Source of the DNA: a virus
Length of the DNA: 27,121 nt
Reading direction: 5' to 3' (one strand)
Virus record (IMG/VR): IMGVR_UViG_3300013120_000913
Span: 1 to 27,121 of that record
Under the pieces are notes generated by a model. That model was given only the letters and a program-made list of their open reading frames with translations. It made no database searches and was not told where the DNA came from. Position numbers and translations under genes: made by a program. Below, piece after piece: positions 1-11,692 of this stretch. Positions within the stretch are counted from its first letter, which is position 1. Each line of letters opens with the position of its first letter.

Positions 1-3000
1 GTGCGCCGAATGCCGCTGACGCTGGAACAACCTGTGGGCGTCGCGCCGGAATGGGATGAGGACATCCTCAGCGCCCGATCCGCGCCCAAGCCGCAGTCCC
101 AGCGGATTCGGCAATGGGCGCAACGGGCCTACAGGAACCGCAACGCCTACGGCGAGAAGACCGCCGCCAGGGTGACCGGCGTACTGGCGCGCGCCGAGAA
201 GGACGTAAAGGCCGCGCTGCTCCACACCACCACACTGGGCGACATGCCGGAAGGAAGACTCGCCAACCAGCGGTCGCTCCGCCGGCTCCAGGGCGAGATC
301 CGCACCATCGCCGCCCAGGTCCGTGACGAGCACCGGTTGATCCTAAAGCACGCCTCGACGGGCAGCTTCAAGCGCGGCATCGGCCACGGCATCGAGGAAT
401 TCGTGGCCGCACAGTTGCCGTTCTACAAAGACCTTGGGCCGAACGGCATCGACAAGATGTCCACGAACGTCTTCACCGTCATCGACACCTCGGCCCTCGA
501 CTTCATGACGCGCTTCAACATGCAACTGACCGGCGACGTGTCCCGCGAACTGGCCGATGGCTTGAACCGCGTCGTCCAGACCGGCATCGCCACAGGCATG
601 TCGGTGAAGGACATCGTCAAAGAGATGGGGACCGTCGTCACGGACAAGGAGGCGTTCCGCCACGCTGGCAAGAAGGTCTTCGGCAAGGCGCAGACCCGCA
701 TGGAACTCATCGCGCGGACGGAAACCATGCGGGCCCACAGCCAGGGTCAGCGGAAGTTCTACTCTACGGTGGGCGTGCGCAAGCTCGAATGGATGACCAT
801 GGACGACGAGCGCATGTGCCCCGAGTGCGAGCCTCTCGACGGCAAGGTCTACCCCACCGGTAAGTTCCCGAACCAGCCCAAGCATCCGAACTGCCGCTGC
901 GGACACACGGCCGTCGTGGACCTTCCCATCTGTGGCTCTCAGCCGCTCGTAAGCCACGCCGCGCCCGCACAGCAGAGCTGCATCCTGTCGCCGGACGACG
1001 TTGCGGCGGAGACGGCGAAGGTCACGGCGGACGAGCAATCGGTCAAGTACGCCGTCAAGAGCGGAAACTTCGACAACCTGACCGCCAAGCAGGCGCAGAT
1101 GGCCGCGAAGCAGAATGGCGTGTCCGTCGCCCGCACCAAGGCCGACTTCATCAAGCTGCTTGACCAAGCCGAGCCGGGCGTGAGTCACTCCCACCTCGGA
1201 GGCCAGGCGCTCAAGCAGAAACTCTCCGAGTACAAGATCGGCGCGCTGCGCACCAAGCAGGAGTTGCTCGATCTGCTGAAGGCGAAACACGCGGCCGCGG
1301 CGCAGAAGCAGACCATCGACGCGGTTACGCCGCCAGGCGGCTATGGACAGTTCACGGTCAAGGAGTTGCAGCAGCAGGCCCTCAATGAGGGCGTCTCGAT
1401 CCACATGACGAAGCAGGACGTCATCGACCATCTGGACCAGATCGAGCTCGGCGTCGACCACTCCCACCTGAGCGGCAAGTCCCTGGCCGCGGCGAAGCAG
1501 AAGTACGGCATCGGCGCGCTCAAGAACAAGCAGCAGTTGATCGACGCCCTCAACAAGCAGGCGGGACAAGCGGCCGCCGAGCAGGCGAAGAAACAGGCCG
1601 ACCAGGCGGAACTCGCCGTCAAGATCGCCCACGCCAATGAACACCTCGAGGCCAAGACCGCCGCCGTCCAAGTGCCCGAGGATCCGGCGGATTACGACTC
1701 CTTCCTCGCGTCGGTGAAGTCGGCCGAGGACCAGATCGCCCAGTCGGGCATCGTGCCCCAGGATGCGGTGCAGTCCCACGCCTCGGCGCTCGCCGTCAAG
1801 AAGCAGGTATTCCATCAGCAGATCGCCTCGATGTCGAGCTCCGAGCTGAAGAAGCTCGCACAGAAGACCAAGGTCCACCACTACCAGTGGGCGGCCAAGG
1901 GCGATCTCGTTGCGCTCTTCACCGAGACCGACCCGGCCAAGGTTCAAAAGGCCAAGGACAAGATCGAGGCCAAGTGGGGCAAATGGGCCGAGAAGCACGG
2001 ATCGAAGAAGGCCAAGAAGAAGCAACCCGCCGCGCCCAAGCCCGCGCCCGCGCCGGAGCCGCCGCAACCCGCCGCGACCGTCCAGCCCAAGAAAGGCTCG
2101 GAGTTCGTCGCCTCTGACGAGGCATGGAAGCAGAAGGGCCAGCCCAACAACTTCACCTTCCAGGGCAAGGCCGAGATCGAAGGCGCACACACCAAGTACT
2201 TTTACACCGACGAGAACGGCGAGAAGTGGCTGTTCAAGCCGGCGGAAGAGGAGTTCCGTGCGCACGGCGATGAGGCCGCCTACCGGATCGGGCGGCTCAT
2301 CGATCCGGAAGCCATTGAGGTGCGCGTCGTCACGCTCGACGGCAAGGTCGGCTCCATCCAGAAGTGGCGCACGGGCCTGGCGGCCAAGAAGGACTTCGCC
2401 GGGGTCGATCCGGCGGATCTGACACCGTCCGACGTAGCGCAACTCCAGCGCGAGCACGTGGTCGACTGGCTCATCAGCAACCACGACGGCCACGGCAAGC
2501 AGTTCCTGCGCACTCGGGACGGGCGCGTTCACGGCATCGACAAGGGACAGCTGTTCAAGTTCCTGGGCGACGACCGGTTGAGCATCGACTATCACCCGAA
2601 TCAGGCGCACGGCGAGAGCGAACCGTACTACAACACGGTCTTCCGCGCGGCGAAGCAGGGCAAGGTCAAGTTCGATCCTGCCGAGACGTTGCGGTACATC
2701 CGCGAGGTCGAGCGCATTTCGGATGACGACTACCGCGCGCTCCTGGCTCCGTATGCAGATCGCCGATTCGGCAGAAAGGCAGCTCAGAAGGAGGCGTTCT
2801 ATCGCACGGCGCTGGAACGCAAGCAGCACATCCGGCGCGACTTTGAGCAGTTCTACGGCGGCGTCTTGGGACAGAAGGACTTCCGCTTCGAGGACGCGGG
2901 GCCCAAGGCGGGAGGCCAGCTGGGCAAGGCTGAGATCGAGATGCTCCAAGATGCCAAACGCGCCGGCTGGCAAGGCAAGGTGATCCCCTTTGACGTCGAG

Positions 3001-4608
3001 GACGTCGAGGACCAGAACGCCCTCGTCTTCACCGAGACGGTCGGCGGCAAGCGACGCACCGTGGTCCGCATGAAGATCAGGCCCGAGGCCGAGTCCAAGA
3101 TGCTGAAGAACCTGGCGCTCACCTCCGACGACAGCCTGGTGACGCTCGTCGGCGACTCGCTGCCCGACGACAAGTACCACGACACGATCCTGGCGGGCAT
3201 CAAGACCGTCAACAGCCATGTCGCCAAGGGCGACCTCGAGTACAACAAGCAGAAGCTGCAGGCGGTACGCGACATCCTCCCCGGCCTCGAGCGGCTGCGG
3301 AAGTCGAAGGACCGCGACGTGGCGGCCATGGCCGATCAGTACCTGGCCGACTGTCGCAAGGTGCTCGACGGCGCGACCGCGGATGCCAAGTACCAGGGGA
3401 CGTTCGTGCAGTACAAGAAGCGGTTCGAGAGCAAGCCCGACCGCAAGAAGCCCGTCGAAGGCATCACCGCGCGCAAGACCAAGGTCCGCATGCCGCTGCG
3501 GCAGATACGCAACGGCGATGTCTCCGTGGTCGACGAGACGGCATCAACCAGCGACGTGTTCGGCCGCGCCATGAAGGACGGCGTCCAGTACGAGATCGAC
3601 CTTGGCGACGGTATGCGCGCGAGCTACAGGCCCTGGGTCAACGGCAACTACTACGCGCACCAGGGGGAGTTCGAGATTCACCTGCCGGGAGACGCCGATC
3701 CGAAGCAGTTCGATCAGATGATGACGCGCCTCGACCGAATGGGCATTACGGCGACCATCGCCACGCCTCAGGACGCGGAGTTGATGTACCTCCAGAAGCA
3801 GGCATACGTCGTCAAGGCCGATACCACGGCCCCGTACAAGAAGACGCTTCGAGACCTCGACCGTCGCGGCGCGAGCAAGGAGGAGCGCATCGCGGCGTTG
3901 CGGGGGTTCTGGGAGAAGAAACTCGGTGTGCCGGACCTGACCAGGATGCCCGGCTACAACCCACTGGGCGAGTACCAGACGCAGTGGGACGATCCGAAGC
4001 GCCAGGCCGGCTATCGCCACCAGATGCGGTTCGACGTCTCGAACGAGGAACTGGACCGCCAACTGCCCGGATACGGCCTCTACCACCGGCTGACCGACGA
4101 CGGCAGCCTGCCGACCTTCATGGACGAGATACTCGGAAGCAACGGTGCGATGGCGTCCACCGTCGAGAAGATGCGCATCGGCGTCAAGCCGGGCGGCATG
4201 TCGCCCCAGGAAGACATGAACACCGGCGGCGCGACATACTTCTTCACCCGCATTCGGAAGCTTCCCGGTCAACGCGGCGGATCCCGCGAGCCGGGCCTCT
4301 ACTTCAAGAAGCGCATGCTCCGGCGCATGGACGCGATCACCTACACTGGCGACAAGTACGGTCGTGTCACGGGTGACACGGTCCACAAGAGCCGTCGCAG
4401 CGGCGTCGCGGACTGGAAGAAGATCGCCGAGCGCGGCGGGTCTGACGAGACGATTTTCAAGTATTCCGTGACACTTCTCGACAATATCGAGGTCGTCGCG
4501 GTACGTAATGCATCAGAGAGAACGAAGGTGATCGCCGCGTTCAAGAAGCGCGGGATCGCCCAGTTACCGGACGGACGCAAGATCGAGGAGTTGGTGGTCG
4601 CGCGATGA
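1..4608 (+). CDS. MuF/SPP1 gp7-type minor head protein fused to kinase-like and other C-terminal domains (5' end at or beyond window edge)
   Basis: Giant (1535 codons) minor head protein that probably enters the procapsid with the portal. Residues about 220-305 carry the MuF/SPP1 gp7 signature: RTE near 240, then DDERMCPECEPLDGKVY (268-284) and PNCRC (296-300). Residues about 350-530 hold two similar repeats, each with GV[SD]HSHL (393-399 and 484-490). A Lys/Pro/Ala linker around 665-695 leads to a HipA/PI-kinase-like domain (about 700-910), with candidate ATP lysine K746, catalytic loop DWLISNHDGHGKQFL (822-836) and metal Asp in GIDKG (845-849). The usual loop Asn is Gln834, so activity is uncertain. 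Residues about 1200-1535 are unrecognised and end in a compact domain (TYFFTRI near 1412; DETIFKY near 1482). The frame opens with GTG at base 1 and an ATG at base 10, but the true start may lie upstream. It overlaps the next gene by ATGA. MuF homology is firm, the kinase-like fold moderately so. Confidence 0.85.
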   Translation: MRRMPLTLEQPVGVAPEWDEDILSARSAPKPQSQRIRQWAQRAYRNRNAYGEKTAARVTGVLARAEKDVKAALLHTTTLGDMPEGRLANQRSLRRLQGEIRTIAAQVRDEHRLILKHASTGSFKRGIGHGIEEFVAAQLPFYKDLGPNGIDKMSTNVFTVIDTSALDFMTRFNMQLTGDVSRELADGLNRVVQTGIATGMSVKDIVKEMGTVVTDKEAFRHAGKKVFGKAQTRMELIARTETMRAHSQGQRKFYSTVGVRKLEWMTMDDERMCPECEPLDGKVYPTGKFPNQPKHPNCRCGHTAVVDLPICGSQPLVSHAAPAQQSCILSPDDVAAETAKVTADEQSVKYAVKSGNFDNLTAKQAQMAAKQNGVSVARTKADFIKLLDQAEPGVSHSHLGGQALKQKLSEYKIGALRTKQELLDLLKAKHAAAAQKQTIDAVTPPGGYGQFTVKELQQQALNEGVSIHMTKQDVIDHLDQIELGVDHSHLSGKSLAAAKQKYGIGALKNKQQLIDALNKQAGQAAAEQAKKQADQAELAVKIAHANEHLEAKTAAVQVPEDPADYDSFLASVKSAEDQIAQSGIVPQDAVQSHASALAVKKQVFHQQIASMSSSELKKLAQKTKVHHYQWAAKGDLVALFTETDPAKVQKAKDKIEAKWGKWAEKHGSKKAKKKQPAAPKPAPAPEPPQPAATVQPKKGSEFVASDEAWKQKGQPNNFTFQGKAEIEGAHTKYFYTDENGEKWLFKPAEEEFRAHGDEAAYRIGRLIDPEAIEVRVVTLDGKVGSIQKWRTGLAAKKDFAGVDPADLTPSDVAQLQREHVVDWLISNHDGHGKQFLRTRDGRVHGIDKGQLFKFLGDDRLSIDYHPNQAHGESEPYYNTVFRAAKQGKVKFDPAETLRYIREVERISDDDYRALLAPYADRRFGRKAAQKEAFYRTALERKQHIRRDFEQFYGGVLGQKDFRFEDAGPKAGGQLGKAEIEMLQDAKRAGWQGKVIPFDVEDVEDQNALVFTETVGGKRRTVVRMKIRPEAESKMLKNLALTSDDSLVTLVGDSLPDDKYHDTILAGIKTVNSHVAKGDLEYNKQKLQAVRDILPGLERLRKSKDRDVAAMADQYLADCRKVLDGATADAKYQGTFVQYKKRFESKPDRKKPVEGITARKTKVRMPLRQIRNGDVSVVDETASTSDVFGRAMKDGVQYEIDLGDGMRASYRPWVNGNYYAHQGEFEIHLPGDADPKQFDQMMTRLDRMGITATIATPQDAELMYLQKQAYVVKADTTAPYKKTLRDLDRRGASKEERIAALRGFWEKKLGVPDLTRMPGYNPLGEYQTQWDDPKRQAGYRHQMRFDVSNEELDRQLPGYGLYHRLTDDGSLPTFMDEILGSNGAMASTVEKMRIGVKPGGMSPQEDMNTGGATYFFTRIRKLPGQRGGSREPGLYFKKRMLRRMDAITYTGDKYGRVTGDTVHKSRRSGVADWKKIAERGGSDETIFKYSVTLLDNIEVVAVRNASERTKVIAAFKKRGIAQLPDGRKIEELVVAR
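1081..1557 (+). repeat. Two SAP/HeH-like protein repeats inside the minor head protein
   Basis: Two in-frame, diverged copies of a roughly 75-residue unit, starting near 1081 and 1348. Both contain a helix resembling LTAKQAQ/FTVKELQQQA, then GVS..TK.D.I..LDQ.E, GV[SD]HSHL, and a second helical half ending IGAL[RK][TN]KQ[EQ]L[LI]D.L. The helix-turn-helix pattern resembles SAP/HeH-type nucleic-acid-binding modules, which is an inference. A weaker third half-unit (SELKKLAQKTKVHHYQ) occurs near residues 614-629. Confidence 0.6.
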
Positions 4609-6328: not shown

Positions 6329-6439
6329 TTTCAGACGGCGTTGATGACTCAAGCCTGACGGGAAAGCCAGCAGGCGTTGAACGATCAAGCCCGGTGTCTT
6401 GGAGAGACAACCTCTCCGAGGCATCGGGCTTTTTCTTTT
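6329..6439 (+). promoter_or_regulatory. Structured intergenic element, copy 1
   Basis: Begins directly after the cargo gene stop. Hairpin 1 (6337-6355) pairs GGC-TTGA with TCAA-GCC around loop TGAC, with one bulged G. A weak hairpin (CCTG 6354-6357 with CAGG 6371-6374) follows. Hairpin 3 (6373-6391) repeats the TTGA/TCAA stem with loop ACGA and the same bulge. A long hairpin (6390-6428) and T-tract come last. The next start codon is 17 bases past the tract. The same layout recurs at 17829 and 26169. Function is unknown; transcription termination or conditional read-through is inferred. Confidence 0.7.
6390..6439 (+). terminator. Intrinsic-terminator-like hairpin of element copy 1
   Basis: CCCGGTG pairs with CATCGGG, extended by TCTTGGAGAG with CTCTCCGAGG around loop ACAAC, and followed by CTTTTTCTTTT. 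The outer CCC also forms part of the preceding TTGA/TCAA hairpin, so the two folds compete for a few bases. Confidence 0.7.
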
Positions 6440-6455
6440 GGCGAGGACGAGACGG

Positions 6456-9400
6456 ATGGAGACATTCGCAACCGACATCGAGAAGCTCGACTTCCTGCTG
6501 GAGGCCGACGCAGCCCTGGCCTTCTTGGGGCTGGAAGCCGAAGCCGCGGCCGCCGACGCGGAAGAGCGGCCGAAGTACGTGGCCACGTACATCGGCTCCA
6601 AGCAGAAACTCGTGGACTGGATTTGGCGCAACACCCCCGAGGGCGTCAAGAGCGCCTTCGACGCGTTCTGCGGGTCTGCGGTGGTCGGCTACATGTACAA
6701 GACCAAGGGCCTGCGCGTGGTCGCCAACGACCGGCTGCGCTTCGCCTACCACACGGCGCGCGCCATCATCGAAAACGACTCCACTCGGCTGACGGACGCC
6801 GAGATCGATGCCCTCGTCGCCGCCAACCCCAAGGCCGGCGACTTTGTGCAGCGGACGTTCAAGGGCATCTACTTCAGCCCCGGCGTGCATGGGATCATCG
6901 ACCATATTCGCGCCAACATCGACGCACTAAGCGGCTACAAGAAGGACTTGGCCCTCTTCGCCCTGGGCAAGGCGTGCATCACGGGCGGCTTCGGCCACTT
7001 CTCGGCAACCACCGAGATGGCGCGGCGCAACTACACCCCCGACCAGTTCCGGGAGAAGGTCAAGGAGACCGCGCGGCGCGTCAACGCCCTGGTCTTCGAC
7101 AACGGCCAGAAGTGCAAGGCGCTCCAGAAGGACATCCTGGAAGCCCTGCCCGAGGCCAAGGTGGACCTCGCCTACTTCGATCCGCCCTACGCCACGCACT
7201 TCTCCACCACCAATTACGAGAGGGCCTACCACTTCATCGAGGGGCTGATGACGTACTGGGACGGGCTGGAGATCGACACCGACAACAAGCTCCGCAACTT
7301 CAAGTCGACCCACAAGACCGTCACCAAGGCCAATGCCCACGACTTCTTCGACGGCTTCTTCGCCAAGGCCCGCCACATCCCGCACTGGCTCGTGTCCTAC
7401 CGCGACCAGGCGTACCCGTCCGAGCCGGAGATGAAGAAGCTCTTGGCGACTCACGGGCGCGACTCCCGCGTGAAGTCCAAGGACCACGAGTACATGATGA
7501 CCACGCGCCACGGCGACGCGTCGCACGGCAAGGAGAGGCTCTTCATCTGCCGCCGCGCGCAGGTGCAGCGGGCCGCGGCTGCCCTCGCTGGCGAGGCGCT
7601 CCACGCCGACGCCATGCAGGCCGAAGCCATCTGGGAGGAGACCCGGAGCGAAATCCGCTACCGCGTGCGCGACCCGAAGGATTTTCGCCCCGACACCTTC
7701 CGCCGGAAGGCGCTCGACGGCGTGGACGGCGTCTCCATCGTCGTCGCCAAGCTGAAGCCGGAGCACGTTCTCGAGGGCAACGATCCGGAGTCCATGGTCA
7801 TCCAGGCGTACCGCTTTGCGCGGAAGACCAACGACACTCCCGAAGGCTGGACCCTGGATCGCGCCAAGGAGTGGATCGCCGAGAACGCCAAGGACGGAAC
7901 GGCCCATTTGGAGGCGGCCGCCGCGGATGAGGCCGCGGATGCGGAAGGCGCCTTGCCCCAGGACGCCGAGGACGCACACTCCTCCTCGGATACCCTCGTC
8001 GCAGAGGGCGAAGAAACACACGATCTCCTGTCCCTGACCGGCGAGTTCGACCTGGACATCCTGGAAGCCATCGCCGCGCAGGAGCGCGTGCCGCGCGTTA
8101 CCGGCTTCATGGGGTCCAAATACTTCATCCTGGGCTGGATCGACAAGCACGTGCCCAAGGACGCCAAGAGCCTGTTCGACGCCTTCGCCGGCGGCTGCAA
8201 CGTGGCCTACTACTACAAGCGCAAGGGCCTGAAGGTCTATGCCAACGACCTGCTGAAGTTCCCGTACCACCTGGCCCGCGCCGTCATCGAGAACTCGAAG
8301 GAAACGCTCACTCCCGAGGACGTCGAGGCCCTCTTCGAGCCGAATGCCCAGGCTGGCAAGTTCTGCGTGGACAACTTCCACGGCTACTACTACACGCGGC
8401 CCATCCTCGCCTGGCTCGATAACACCTGGGCCAACATCCAGAAGTTGTCGGGCTACAAGAAGGACATTGCCCTGGCCGCCCTGGGCTGTACCTGCAAGGC
8501 CAAGGCGCGCTTCGGCCAGTTCTCGCGCAGCAAGAAAGGCATGCGGGGCCGGCTGAGCGACGACCACGAGCGCGCCCGCCACACACAACTGGGCAACATG
8601 CCGCTGTCGGAGTTCACGGAAACCTTCCGGCGCTATGTGAAGCAGCTCAACCGGCTCGTTTTCGACAACGGCCAGGAATGCCGCGTCTTCAACGCCGACG
8701 TGCTTGAGATCATTCCCAAGGTCAAGGCCGACGTCATCTACTGCGACCCACCGTATGTGACCGAGTTCGGCTCGAACGATTACGAGAGCGACCTCCACTT
8801 CGTCGAGGGCCTGATGACGATGTGGAAGGGCAAGACGCTCACCGACGACACCCGCCGCGCCTTCCAGTCCCGCACCCGTTACACCAAAGCGTCCATGAAG
8901 GAACTCTTCCAGAGCTTCATCGCCGCCGCGCGCAAGAACGCTTCCACGATCCTCATCAGCTACCGCGACAAGGCATTCCCGACCGAGGACGAGGTCAAGG
9001 GCATGCTCGCGCACGACTATGAGAAGGTGGGCGTGAGCGCCATCGACGTGCAGTACGGCATCGTACCCTACGAGGCCAAGCGCGGCGGTAAGTTCGCCAA
9101 GGAACTCCTGTTCGTGGCGACCGGGCCCAAGCGCATGGCCTCGGCGGCCAGCGAGAACGCTGGCGATCCCGGCTTCCATACAACCTTCCCGGTCGAGATC
9201 AGCTTTTCAGACGATGTCCGACCATCGGCCCAGGCGATCAATCTCAGCGACATGCCCTCGGGCGACAAGGAGTTCACGTTCGTGCTGTGCCACTCCGGCA
9301 CGAATCGCAACGGCGACCACTTCACGCGCGAGGAACTGTCCAGCCGCCATCCCACGGCGGTCAACAAGAAGATCGACCTCAAGCACAGCCAGGATTTCCG

Positions 9401-10412
9401 GGACATCGTCGGCGGGATCGTAGCCAGTGACTTCGTGGACGACGACACCGGCGGCCGCGTCGAGTGCGTGGGCGAGTTGTACGTCGCCGACAACGAGAAC
9501 GCCCGCCTGGCCTACAAGCTCATGCGCAAAGGGATCATCACGCAGGTCTCCATGGAGTGCGACTACGACGAGGGCGAATGCTCGGTCTGCTCCAAGCGCG
9601 TGAAGTCCAAGGCCGAGTACTGCGTTCACCTGAAGAAGTTCAAGGGCAAGGAGTTCCAGGGAAAGCCCGTGTGCGAGGTCCTGCACGGGATCACCTTCAC
9701 GGGTTTGGGCCTCTTGGACCGGAAAGGAGCCGACGAGAATGCACGGATCAAGCAGGTAGCGGACCACCTTTCGGATGTTAGTAACCCCCAGGAAGGAGGA
9801 AGTGAATCCATGGCGGATGAGAAGAAGACGGACGAGCATCCCGTTGAGGATGCCGCGAAGAAGGACACGGGCGGCGGCGGAGAGCCGTCCAAGGACGCCC
9901 GGATCAAGGAGCTCGAGAGCGAGAACCAGAAGCTCAAGGCCCAGGTGGCCGAGCTCCAGAAGCAGCTCGAGGCGTTCCAGGCCAAGGAGGAGGCGTCCGC
10001 GCGTCGCGCCAAGGCGGAAAAGCTCCTGCAGAAGCTGGAGAAGGACGGCTTCGCTTTCGGCGATGAGGACGCCCGCGAGCAGGAACTGGAACGGCTGGCC
10101 GGCCTCTCGGACGAGGCCTTCGCCGCGACCCAGGCGGCCTACGAACGCGTGCCCAAACCGAAGGTCGAGGGCAAAGCCGACGAGGCCGAGGACAAGGCCG
10201 ACGCCGGCAAGGGCTCCGACAAGAAGACGGACGCCGACAAACCGGCCCAGGAGAGCGACAAAACCGGGGCCAAGGCGTCCGACGACCGTCGGATGCGCAC
10301 CGACGCGGGCGTGAAGCCCCTGGTCGTGGACGACAAGAAACTGTCCCTCGAGGACAAGCTCAAGACCGGGATGATGGCGGCCTACAAGGACCGCGTCGCC
10401 ACCGAGGTCTGA
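6456..10412 (+). CDS. Fusion: two D12-class adenine DNA methyltransferase domains + prohead-protease-like domain + scaffold
   Basis: Uninterrupted 1318-aa frame. The chosen ATG follows a GAGGACGAGACGG stretch; an upstream TTG at 6399 lies inside the terminator hairpin and is unlikely. Residues about 45-370 and 550-880 are two homologous D12/Dam-type N6-adenine methyltransferase domains. Each has a SAM motif (FDAFCGS 68-74; FDAFAGG 574-580) and a catalytic DPPY (242-245; 764-767). Between them is a small domain (IRYRVRDPKDFRPDTF, about 400-480) that I recall from phage head proteins. Residues about 925-1095 resemble phage prohead proteases, with candidate His977 (LKHSQDF), Ser1032 (QVSMECDYDEG), a Cys cluster (CSVC 1042-1045) and VLHGITFTGLGLLDRKGADE. 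Residues 1119-1318 are a charged coiled-coil scaffold. It is the first gene after element copy 1. Domain calls are good; the protease catalytic residues are inferred. Confidence 0.85.
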   Translation: METFATDIEKLDFLLEADAALAFLGLEAEAAAADAEERPKYVATYIGSKQKLVDWIWRNTPEGVKSAFDAFCGSAVVGYMYKTKGLRVVANDRLRFAYHTARAIIENDSTRLTDAEIDALVAANPKAGDFVQRTFKGIYFSPGVHGIIDHIRANIDALSGYKKDLALFALGKACITGGFGHFSATTEMARRNYTPDQFREKVKETARRVNALVFDNGQKCKALQKDILEALPEAKVDLAYFDPPYATHFSTTNYERAYHFIEGLMTYWDGLEIDTDNKLRNFKSTHKTVTKANAHDFFDGFFAKARHIPHWLVSYRDQAYPSEPEMKKLLATHGRDSRVKSKDHEYMMTTRHGDASHGKERLFICRRAQVQRAAAALAGEALHADAMQAEAIWEETRSEIRYRVRDPKDFRPDTFRRKALDGVDGVSIVVAKLKPEHVLEGNDPESMVIQAYRFARKTNDTPEGWTLDRAKEWIAENAKDGTAHLEAAAADEAADAEGALPQDAEDAHSSSDTLVAEGEETHDLLSLTGEFDLDILEAIAAQERVPRVTGFMGSKYFILGWIDKHVPKDAKSLFDAFAGGCNVAYYYKRKGLKVYANDLLKFPYHLARAVIENSKETLTPEDVEALFEPNAQAGKFCVDNFHGYYYTRPILAWLDNTWANIQKLSGYKKDIALAALGCTCKAKARFGQFSRSKKGMRGRLSDDHERARHTQLGNMPLSEFTETFRRYVKQLNRLVFDNGQECRVFNADVLEIIPKVKADVIYCDPPYVTEFGSNDYESDLHFVEGLMTMWKGKTLTDDTRRAFQSRTRYTKASMKELFQSFIAAARKNASTILISYRDKAFPTEDEVKGMLAHDYEKVGVSAIDVQYGIVPYEAKRGGKFAKELLFVATGPKRMASAASENAGDPGFHTTFPVEISFSDDVRPSAQAINLSDMPSGDKEFTFVLCHSGTNRNGDHFTREELSSRHPTAVNKKIDLKHSQDFRDIVGGIVASDFVDDDTGGRVECVGELYVADNENARLAYKLMRKGIITQVSMECDYDEGECSVCSKRVKSKAEYCVHLKKFKGKEFQGKPVCEVLHGITFTGLGLLDRKGADENARIKQVADHLSDVSNPQEGGSESMADEKKTDEHPVEDAAKKDTGGGGEPSKDARIKELESENQKLKAQVAELQKQLEAFQAKEEASARRAKAEKLLQKLEKDGFAFGDEDAREQELERLAGLSDEAFAATQAAYERVPKPKVEGKADEAEDKADAGKGSDKKTDADKPAQESDKTGAKASDDRRMRTDAGVKPLVVDDKKLSLEDKLKTGMMAAYKDRVATEV
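9791..9800 (+). promoter_or_regulatory. Internal Shine-Dalgarno for nested scaffold
   Basis: GGAAGGAGGA lies inside the fusion gene about 10 bases before an in-frame ATG at 9810. Its quality matches the ribosome sites before the decoration and capsid genes, so chance occurrence inside coding sequence is unlikely. Confidence 0.75.
9810..10412 (+). CDS. Nested in-frame capsid scaffold protein, 200 aa
   Basis: A second translation start inside the protease fusion, in the same frame and ending at the same stop. The product starts MADEKKTDEHPVEDAAKK and is highly charged. It has a coiled-coil region (IKELESENQKLKAQVAEL and following, about residues 30-75) and a low-complexity Lys/Asp/Ala tail, as expected of a scaffold. 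Lambda gpC/Nu3 uses the same arrangement: the scaffold is the C-terminal part of the protease gene and is made in excess from an internal start. Placement just before decoration and major capsid genes fits. It is presumably degraded by the protease during maturation, which is inferred from family behaviour. Confidence 0.75.
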   Translation: MADEKKTDEHPVEDAAKKDTGGGGEPSKDARIKELESENQKLKAQVAELQKQLEAFQAKEEASARRAKAEKLLQKLEKDGFAFGDEDAREQELERLAGLSDEAFAATQAAYERVPKPKVEGKADEAEDKADAGKGSDKKTDADKPAQESDKTGAKASDDRRMRTDAGVKPLVVDDKKLSLEDKLKTGMMAAYKDRVATEV

Positions 10413-10435: not shown

Positions 10436-10798
10436 ATGGCGTTTCTGAATGCGGACCATCCGGGCCTGGCCTACGGCGATGGCTACATGTCCGGGGCCGG
10501 CACGCTCGGCCAAATCGTGAAGGTCGCCGGCAACGACCAGTTCGCCGTCAACGACGACGCGACGGTGCGATCCTTCGGCATCCTGCGCAAGGACTATGCC
10601 GACGCCAAGATGCCCGGCATCTGGTGTCGCGGCGGCGTCTACACCACGGACGTGTTCGAGGGCACGGTCAACGCCGGCGACGAACTGAAGGCCTCGGCCA
10701 ACGGCAAGCTCACCGCTGGCGTGGTCGCGGGCGACGAAGTCATCGCCGAGGCGATCAGCGTGGTCGGCGGCGTGCTCAAGTTCAAGCTGCTCATCTGA
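10436..10798 (+). CDS. Capsid decoration (head-stabilising) protein, 120 aa
   Basis: Starts after GAAGGAGGTGTGAACC and lies between scaffold and major capsid protein, the classical position of lambda gpD-type decoration proteins. The sequence is Gly/Ala/Val-rich and beta-predicted: a central GTLGQIVKVAGNDQFAV, then VFEGTVNAGDELKASANGK, ending in a hydrophobic strand (VVGGVLKFKLLI). There is no membrane segment or enzyme motif. The call rests mainly on position, size and beta-barrel-like pattern. It would bind the outside of the expanded capsid. Confidence 0.65.
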   Translation: MAFLNADHPGLAYGDGYMSGAGTLGQIVKVAGNDQFAVNDDATVRSFGILRKDYADAKMPGIWCRGGVYTTDVFEGTVNAGDELKASANGKLTAGVVAGDEVIAEAISVVGGVLKFKLLI

Positions 10799-10828: not shown

Positions 10829-11692
10829 ATGGAAGCTCCGACGATTGACGTTCACTCCCAGGAGTACATGGAGGCCATGGCCGCGCTCATGAGCGAGGCC
10901 GTCGAGTCTCCCGAGGGCCTGCGTGCCCTCGCCGCGGCCATCGGGCCGCCCATCGAGCAGGAGATCAAGCGCAAGGAGATCTCCTCGCTCCTGCTCACGA
11001 AGCACACGCTGCCCAAGGGCGAGCGCCCGCTGTACCAGAAGAAGCCGACGCTCAAGGCCTACTGGATCAGCGAGGACGGCGAGGCCCGCGAGCAGGAGGT
11101 CGGCAAGGACGAGGTGGAGTTCCCCACGAGCCGCGTGCATAGCGCGCCCATGGTGGACATCTCCGTCCTCAAGCACGGCAACATCGGCACGCTGGTGGAC
11201 ATCCAGAAGTCCGCAGCCGACGAGATCCGCAAGACCATCGACAGCCGGACGATCTCAGTGGTCTCCGCGGGCGTGCCCGCGGCCAACACGGTCGATGTCA
11301 CCGGGTCCGTCCTCACGGACGACGGCCTCAACGAGGCCATCTCCATCCTCGAGGACATGGAACTGACGGTGAAGTGGATCGTCATGCGCGGTCGCCGGTT
11401 CAACGACATCCGCGACTGGGACCTCGATCCTCAAACCAAGGCCGAGTTGCGCCAGAAAGGCGTCATCAAGAACTACGGCACCGGCGGCATCCTGCTCACG
11501 TCGGCCATGCCCCTCGATGAAGTGCTGGTCCTGCCCGACGAAGAGGTCGGCAAGATGCCGGTGCGCGAGGCGGTCAAGACCGAGAGCGTGGACCGCAAGA
11601 CGAAGTTCAAGACCGGATGGCTCATCTGGAGCGAACTGGGCATGGGCGTCACGCGCCCGGACATCTGCGCCAAGGTCAAGATCCTCGGCTGA
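10829..11692 (+). CDS. Major capsid protein (HK97-fold type), 287 aa
   Basis: Strong ribosome site (AGAAGGAGGACTG) before the ATG and a position directly after scaffold and decoration genes. The N-terminal about 70 residues are helical and could be a cleavable delta-like region. The body contains patterns of HK97-fold capsids: a strand/helix stretch VDISVLKHGNIGTLVDIQ, an A-domain-like VKWIVMRGRRFNDIRDWDLD and a late GGILLTSAMPLDEVLVLPDEEVG, ending with GMGVTRPDICAKVKILG. The length suits a small HK97-type coat protein. No other gene in the window could fill this role. Confidence 0.8.
   Translation: MEAPTIDVHSQEYMEAMAALMSEAVESPEGLRALAAAIGPPIEQEIKRKEISSLLLTKHTLPKGERPLYQKKPTLKAYWISEDGEAREQEVGKDEVEFPTSRVHSAPMVDISVLKHGNIGTLVDIQKSAADEIRKTIDSRTISVVSAGVPAANTVDVTGSVLTDDGLNEAISILEDMELTVKWIVMRGRRFNDIRDWDLDPQTKAELRQKGVIKNYGTGGILLTSAMPLDEVLVLPDEEVGKMPVREAVKTESVDRKTKFKTGWLIWSELGMGVTRPDICAKVKILG

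Follow-up and report, generated by a model that had tools for sequence, protein, structure and literature searches.

In phage λ the C protease is ClpP-like and of the S49 type, and the scaffold is also produced from an internal start; the herpesvirus UL26/UL26.5 pair is likewise a protease-scaffold with a nested scaffold. The placing of protease and scaffold in one gene has been described for both λ and P2 (PMC8508860), the overlap of the λ C and Nu3 genes goes back to Shaw and Murialdo (1980), as cited in PMC8508860, and PMC2949831 describes the whole of UL26.5 as contained in the C-terminus of UL26. A second precedent comes from phage P1, in which DarB, an adenine methylase borne in the head, gives the phage DNA protection in cis (PMC5512222), and whose Dar proteins are ejected along with the DNA (PMC12810830). 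Nested protease-scaffold genes and head-borne anti-restriction methylases were thus already known, as was the protein family considered here, in the form of phrog_27806, and it is their combination that was not found described in the literature searched. That search covered titles and abstracts, with most subscription journals outside its coverage, and returned nothing relevant on a fusion of methyltransferase and prohead protease.

The window, i.e., the whole stretch of 27,121 nucleotides that was analysed (positions 1 to 27,121 of IMG/VR record IMGVR_UViG_3300013120_000913), carries a head and tail module from a contractile-tailed phage, with the genes for neck, tail sheath, tail tube and tape measure lying downstream of that for the major head protein (Table 1). 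The MuF-like protein encoded upstream is very long (1535 aa), and further cargo could be held in its large C-terminal part, which is uncharacterised (phrog_6577), and the small gene between the fusion and the major head protein matched no Pfam or PHROGs family. The fusion frame is open from a TTG at 6399 or an ATG at 6456, the latter in agreement with the conserved N-terminal motif of its homologues, M-x-x-F-A-T-D.

Table 1. Features of the fusion gene and its neighbours in the window (positions from the first nucleotide of the window).
Feature	Position	Strand	Basis or detail
MuF-like minor head protein, upstream	1..4608	+	Phage_Mu_F, E 2.8e-12; phrog_6577
Terminator-like hairpin with a T run, immediately 5' of the fusion ORF	6387..6440	+	z-score -6.0
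Whole fusion ORF, 1318 aa	6456..10412	+	methyltransferase D1, linker domain, methyltransferase D2, prohead protease, scaffold
D12 methyltransferase domain 1 (D1)	6576..7565	+	Pfam PF02086, invariant DPPY in intact homologues, Dam-like fold
D1 motif I	near 6657..6683	+	
D1 DPPY	7179..7190	+	
Small linker domain	7629..7895	+	conserved alignment block, ~41% occupancy
D12 methyltransferase domain 2 (D2)	8088..9140	+	best PF02086 stretch; single clade in tree
D2 motif I	near 8175..8201	+	
D2 DPPY	8745..8756	+	
Variable segment joining methyltransferase to protease	9141..9260	+	low conservation, low pLDDT; possible cleavage region
Prohead protease domain (predicted)	9261..9755	+	conserved residues, sub-threshold Peptidase_S78, predicted fold
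Protease His977	9384..9386	+	
Protease Ser1032	9549..9551	+	
Protease Cys/His finger	9579..9629	+	
Internal ribosome-binding site AAGGAGG (9793-9799) and start ATG (9810-9812) of nested scaffold gene	9793..9812	+	
Nested scaffold ORF, 200 aa	9810..10412	+	long helix ~9888-10043, conserved C-terminal helix ~10347-10406
Small gene at capsid-decoration position	10436..10798	+	syntenic in homologues; function from position only
Major head protein	10829..11692	+	phrog_2522, E 1.3e-81; syntenic

The first-pass annotation of this DNA had read the frame as carrying two D12 adenine methyltransferases with intact DPPY and SAM motifs, and both were borne out. Pfam MethyltransfD12 (PF02086) matched the window protein over two stretches (E 2.4e-42, 145.9 bits vs a cut-off of 22), the two DPPY motifs occupy residues 242-245 and 764-767, and SAM motif I is intact in both domains (FDAFCGSAV and FDAFAGGCN). 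A solved-structure sequence search with the methyltransferase part produced nothing relevant, and its closest structural match is E. coli Dam. Profile, motifs and the modelled Dam-like fold place the domains in the D12 class of N6-adenine DNA methyltransferases, with catalysis predicted. D1 and D2 share ~40% identity with each other and 31-36% with the C-terminal domain of Dam-family enzymes that belong to restriction systems of the AlwI type, e.g., that of plasmid pGS18; this domain was the nearest among the few outside proteins compared. Enzymes of the AlwI type, however, have two unlike domains and lie beside a restriction enzyme, whereas the fusion has one or two copies of the C-terminal type joined to head proteins. 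The different N-type and C-type D12 domains that mark two-domain type IIS enzymes (M.FokI/AlwI type) were not found in it, and the capture of an intact M.FokI-like enzyme is unsupported, with D1 and D2 both resembling the C-terminal type. D1 is present throughout the family; in a tree with long outgroup branches the D2 domains form one clade (support 100/100) and most of the domains from single forms group with D1, the singles having either lost D2 or preceded it. The linker domain, for which there was no Pfam match, occurs between D1 and D2 in part of the two-methyltransferase forms, and at one locus with a broken frame (L131) part of it seems to be joined straight to the protease.

That these domains truly share a frame with head proteins is established by their homologues. 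Searches of viral contigs and GTDB genomes, after the removal of duplicates, yielded 88 distinct homologues that are complete and fused, 40 of them bearing a single methyltransferase and 48 bearing two (44 clusters at very roughly 90% identity), and the gene order of the head module around them is unchanged. The window's own sequence recurred at 100% identity on two other contigs (L002, L003). Fused copies also lie within genomes of cultured bacteria, including Desulfosarcina alkanivorans PL12, D. widdelii PP31, Desulfobulbus rhabdoformis DSM 8777, Ectothiorhodospira shaposhnikovii DSM 243 and Sulfidibacter corallicola M133, and the prophages of Desulfosarcina and Sulfidibacter carry the fusion adjoining the capsid gene. 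A sequencing, assembly or frame artefact that had linked separate genes could appeal to the frame breaks in a handful of homologous contigs (L004, L058, L064, L092, L131, L135), which fall mostly in the methyltransferase part and are contig errors or decayed copies, but we give it virtually no credence against 88 distinct complete copies, isolate genomes and low dN/dS along the frame. The fusion is no error, because so many distinct complete homologues keep it, and the alternative for which the first-pass annotation had allowed, methyltransferases encoded apart in homologues together with an error here, fails on the same grounds: separate methyltransferase genes were not seen among the relatives, where the fusion is nearly universal. 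The chromosome of D. alkanivorans PL12 holds a single-methyltransferase prophage and a double-methyltransferase prophage together (L117, L119).

The family was in the databases under an incomplete name. PHROG phrog_27806 (PHROGs v4) matches the window protein with E=0 over D2, protease and scaffold, and its model of 798 positions spans methyltransferase, protease and scaffold and matches a single-methyltransferase homologue end to end. It is the same family as the fusion, named only 'DNA methyltransferase', and its annotation omits the protease, the scaffold and the nested start, while the window adds a second methyltransferase and the linker domain. The label can now be corrected, as phrog_27806 carries a head protease and scaffold besides the methyltransferase.

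Selection has acted along the whole protein. In homologue pairs dN/dS was about 0.04-0.11 for D1, 0.03-0.10 for D2, 0.02-0.06 for the protease and 0.07-0.27 for the scaffold, figures that are rough, as many synonymous distances exceeded 1 and the last four listed pairs were left out. The methyltransferases are thus similar to the protease and mostly below the scaffold; between the window and its nearest relatives the values were 0.25-0.32 for D1 and 0.16 for D2. Such ratios indicate that both methyltransferase domains are kept by purifying selection. They bear on the idea that the domains are mainly structural or regulatory, tying the procapsid core to DNA or portal or controlling their own transcript, with catalysis unimportant. 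Big N-terminal domains could fill a procapsid core, two copies are common and the leader of the gene is structured, all of which would suit such a role, but the DPPY motif is invariant in all intact copies and purifying selection on both domains is strong, and we regard a mainly structural or regulatory role as unlikely.

The domain that follows the variable segment has an invariant His977, an invariant Ser1032 (in QVSMEC) and an inserted zinc finger of the Cys-Cys-Cys-His kind. In the window protein neither the protease nor the scaffold had a significant Pfam match: Peptidase_S78 scored 14.3 bits vs a cut-off of 21, it matched 14 of 29 homologues at E up to 1 (best 9e-4, sub-threshold), and it rose above the cut-off in 0 of 10 contigs. 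A structure predicted from 29 sequences had protease blocks with pLDDT mostly of 80-97, and its top match among solved structures was to the herpesvirus assemblins, a weak one (E 0.004), while among predicted viral structures it matched many annotated prohead proteases and, best of all, gp19 of Bacillus phage G (E 1e-15). A solved-structure sequence search with the protease-scaffold profile found nothing relevant. Phage G gp19 was also the best phage sequence match to the protease region and its gene lies upstream of the capsid genes, but it has only 300 aa and no methyltransferase. The herpesvirus UL26/UL26.5 proteins, which share the assemblin-like fold to that weak degree, also have no methyltransferase and are very distant from the fusion in sequence. 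Conservation, the sub-threshold Peptidase_S78 profile, the predicted fold and the position in the head module together point to an assemblin/S78-like prohead protease, an assignment that the modelled fold fits and the profile approaches from below its threshold. A protease of the λ type (S49/ClpP-like) was considered and set aside, as neither Pfam nor the listed fold hits showed an S49 match; the best of those fold hits were assemblins and prohead serine proteases. Weak protease matches were seen near the N-termini of gp90 of Mycobacterium phage Alice (1511 aa, L206:3872-8407) and gp77 of Rhodococcus phage E3 (895 aa, L205:3854-6541), so that other phages, too, may load extra domains on such a protease, at its opposite end.

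C-terminal to the protease there is a long helix fit for a coiled coil and then a conserved last helix. This part was labelled scaffold on its helical build, which is usual for scaffold, on its position and on a nested start, our main new finding and one that the first-pass annotation had missed. In the window AAGGAGG is followed after 10 nt by an ATG that opens the 200-residue scaffold in frame. With a loose rule, an internal ribosome-binding site and start were present at this place in 42 of the 44 clusters vs 12.6% of stretches of similar size taken from the rest of these ORFs, and with a strict rule (AGGAGG or AAGGAG) in 34 of 39 vs 1.2%, the percentages being rates rather than independent trials, as the background stretches overlap. 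The residue at the internal start in the listed junctions is Met, Val or Leu, the codon being ATG, GTG or TTG. The conserved internal site, then, has the look of a translation start. A ribosome-binding site ahead of the protease, from which a separate protease-scaffold might be made, turned up as isolated single-locus hits, none conserved.

The arrangement is that of λ C/Nu3: the predicted protease is N-terminal to the scaffold within a single frame of the head module, adjoining the capsid gene, and the in-frame start is conserved; λ differs in having no methyltransferase, and the protease of the window is assemblin/S78-like. From the conserved internal ribosome-binding site and start, two products are therefore expected, as in λ C/Nu3 and herpesvirus UL26/UL26.5, i.e., the gene should give a long enzyme-protease-scaffold and a separate free scaffold.

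A relative without methyltransferase came from a second prophage of S. corallicola, in which a 425-residue protein corresponds to the protease-scaffold part only and is 47% identical over that part. Its locus (L209:8646-9923, L210) has the order MuF, protease-scaffold, decoration, major capsid, neck, and inside the gene AAAGGAG and TTG stand where the fused forms have their nested start. There was no D12 match on the 90-kb contig of this prophage. Among the relatives examined, which were found with patterns from fused members, no other intact frame lacked the methyltransferase, and further such forms may have been missed. Because this prophage has the protease-scaffold by itself, the enzymes look like an optional, removable N-terminal load on the gene. 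The fused and the methyltransferase-less forms thus both occur in the same host, S. corallicola.

Our reading of the locus, to which we assign a probability of about 0.5, is that of a nested protease-scaffold gene with N-terminal methyltransferase cargo, whose long form would bring the enzyme into the procapsid to act on the packaged or ejected genome. The phage would have gained, and would keep under selection, N-terminal D12 adenine methyltransferases on its protease-scaffold gene, which would then make the full-length methyltransferase-protease-scaffold and, from 9810, a free scaffold that would be the bulk scaffold. The full-length product would enter the procapsid by its C-terminal scaffold end, like the λ C protease, and so carry both protease and methyltransferase into the head. 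As the head matures, the protease would remove the scaffold, would probably cut the variable segment before it and may free the methyltransferase, some of which would remain with the packaged genome and methylate its adenines at packaging or after ejection; the simplest purpose would be protection from host restriction. The homologue counts, the isolate genomes, the order of the head module, the selection, the nested start, the protease fold, the methyltransferase-less relative and the precedents of P1, λ and P2 all lend support to head cargo. The first-pass annotation had proposed that fusion to a protein entering the procapsid would place methylation activity inside the particle; the fusion to a protease-scaffold has proved real, conserved and selected, the case for entry into the procapsid is strengthened by the conserved C-terminal helix and by the nested start of the scaffold, which is conserved as well, and the location within the particle is the part that we infer.

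Several points count against head cargo. Prohead proteases often degrade internal proteins, and the enzyme may not survive; the supply of SAM in a packed head is doubtful, and action may need ejection; the identity of the protease comes from its fold and a sub-threshold profile; and the methyltransferase-less relative means that the enzyme is unnecessary for head assembly. Nor is the P1 precedent exact: its Dar (polyvalent) proteins include a head-borne methylase, whereas a place in the virion is conjectural for the methyltransferase here, and the DarB methylase is paired with a SWI2/SNF2 helicase, whereas that of the fusion is joined to protease and scaffold, with no match in Pfam or PHROGs to a helicase of the DarB type in the fusion protein.

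The chief rival is that the methyltransferase, expressed late together with head genes, acts in the infected cell on replicated progeny DNA, perhaps at the packaging site as the scaffold gathers at the portal, and is cleaved off or lost before completion of the head, so that virions would have methylated DNA and no enzyme. The D12 methyltransferases of phages are usually cytoplasmic, a variable segment lies between the enzyme and the protease, and single, double and methyltransferase-less forms all exist, as would suit such late methylation. It leaves unexplained, however, why separate methyltransferase genes did not turn up and the fusion is near-universal among relatives, and why the enzyme is on the long product rather than the abundant one. 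The present evidence is compatible with both head cargo and methylation in the cell, and we hold the latter to be the less probable of the two.

If the enzyme is carried in the head, the gene would show how phages can, by simple genetic means, get enzymes into their particles via the scaffold, and protection of incoming DNA by a virion-borne methyltransferase would be testable in culturable lysogens. A further thought, which we offer as tentative, concerns design: with the enzymes on a minor full-length product, each procapsid would receive a small, controlled number of methyltransferases, which the protease would release and which would mark the genome at packing or travel to the next cell, and the long form would be kept rare by a leader in which the ribosome-binding site is buried.

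Many homologues do have a long structured leader directly 5' of the fusion start codon (z-scores -2.6 to -6.8), in which YUCCGGU and ACCGGAG form the two arms of an outer stem and the ribosome-binding site falls within the second arm. With the start of the long form hidden in such a leader and the scaffold start open and strong, little long product would be expected relative to the short one, and we put this forward as a suggestion only. An Rfam search with the window and seven homologous loci gave no match, and in a MAFFT alignment of the leader RNAs the register differed between groups. The leader region of the window (6387-6455) has instead a 20-bp terminator-like hairpin, which is also found in some other two-methyltransferase relatives. 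In examples of the long leader (L015:6547-6618, L024:5415-5496, L119:7188-7279 and L101:8666-8743) the inner part differs strongly from one locus to another, both in length and in sequence.
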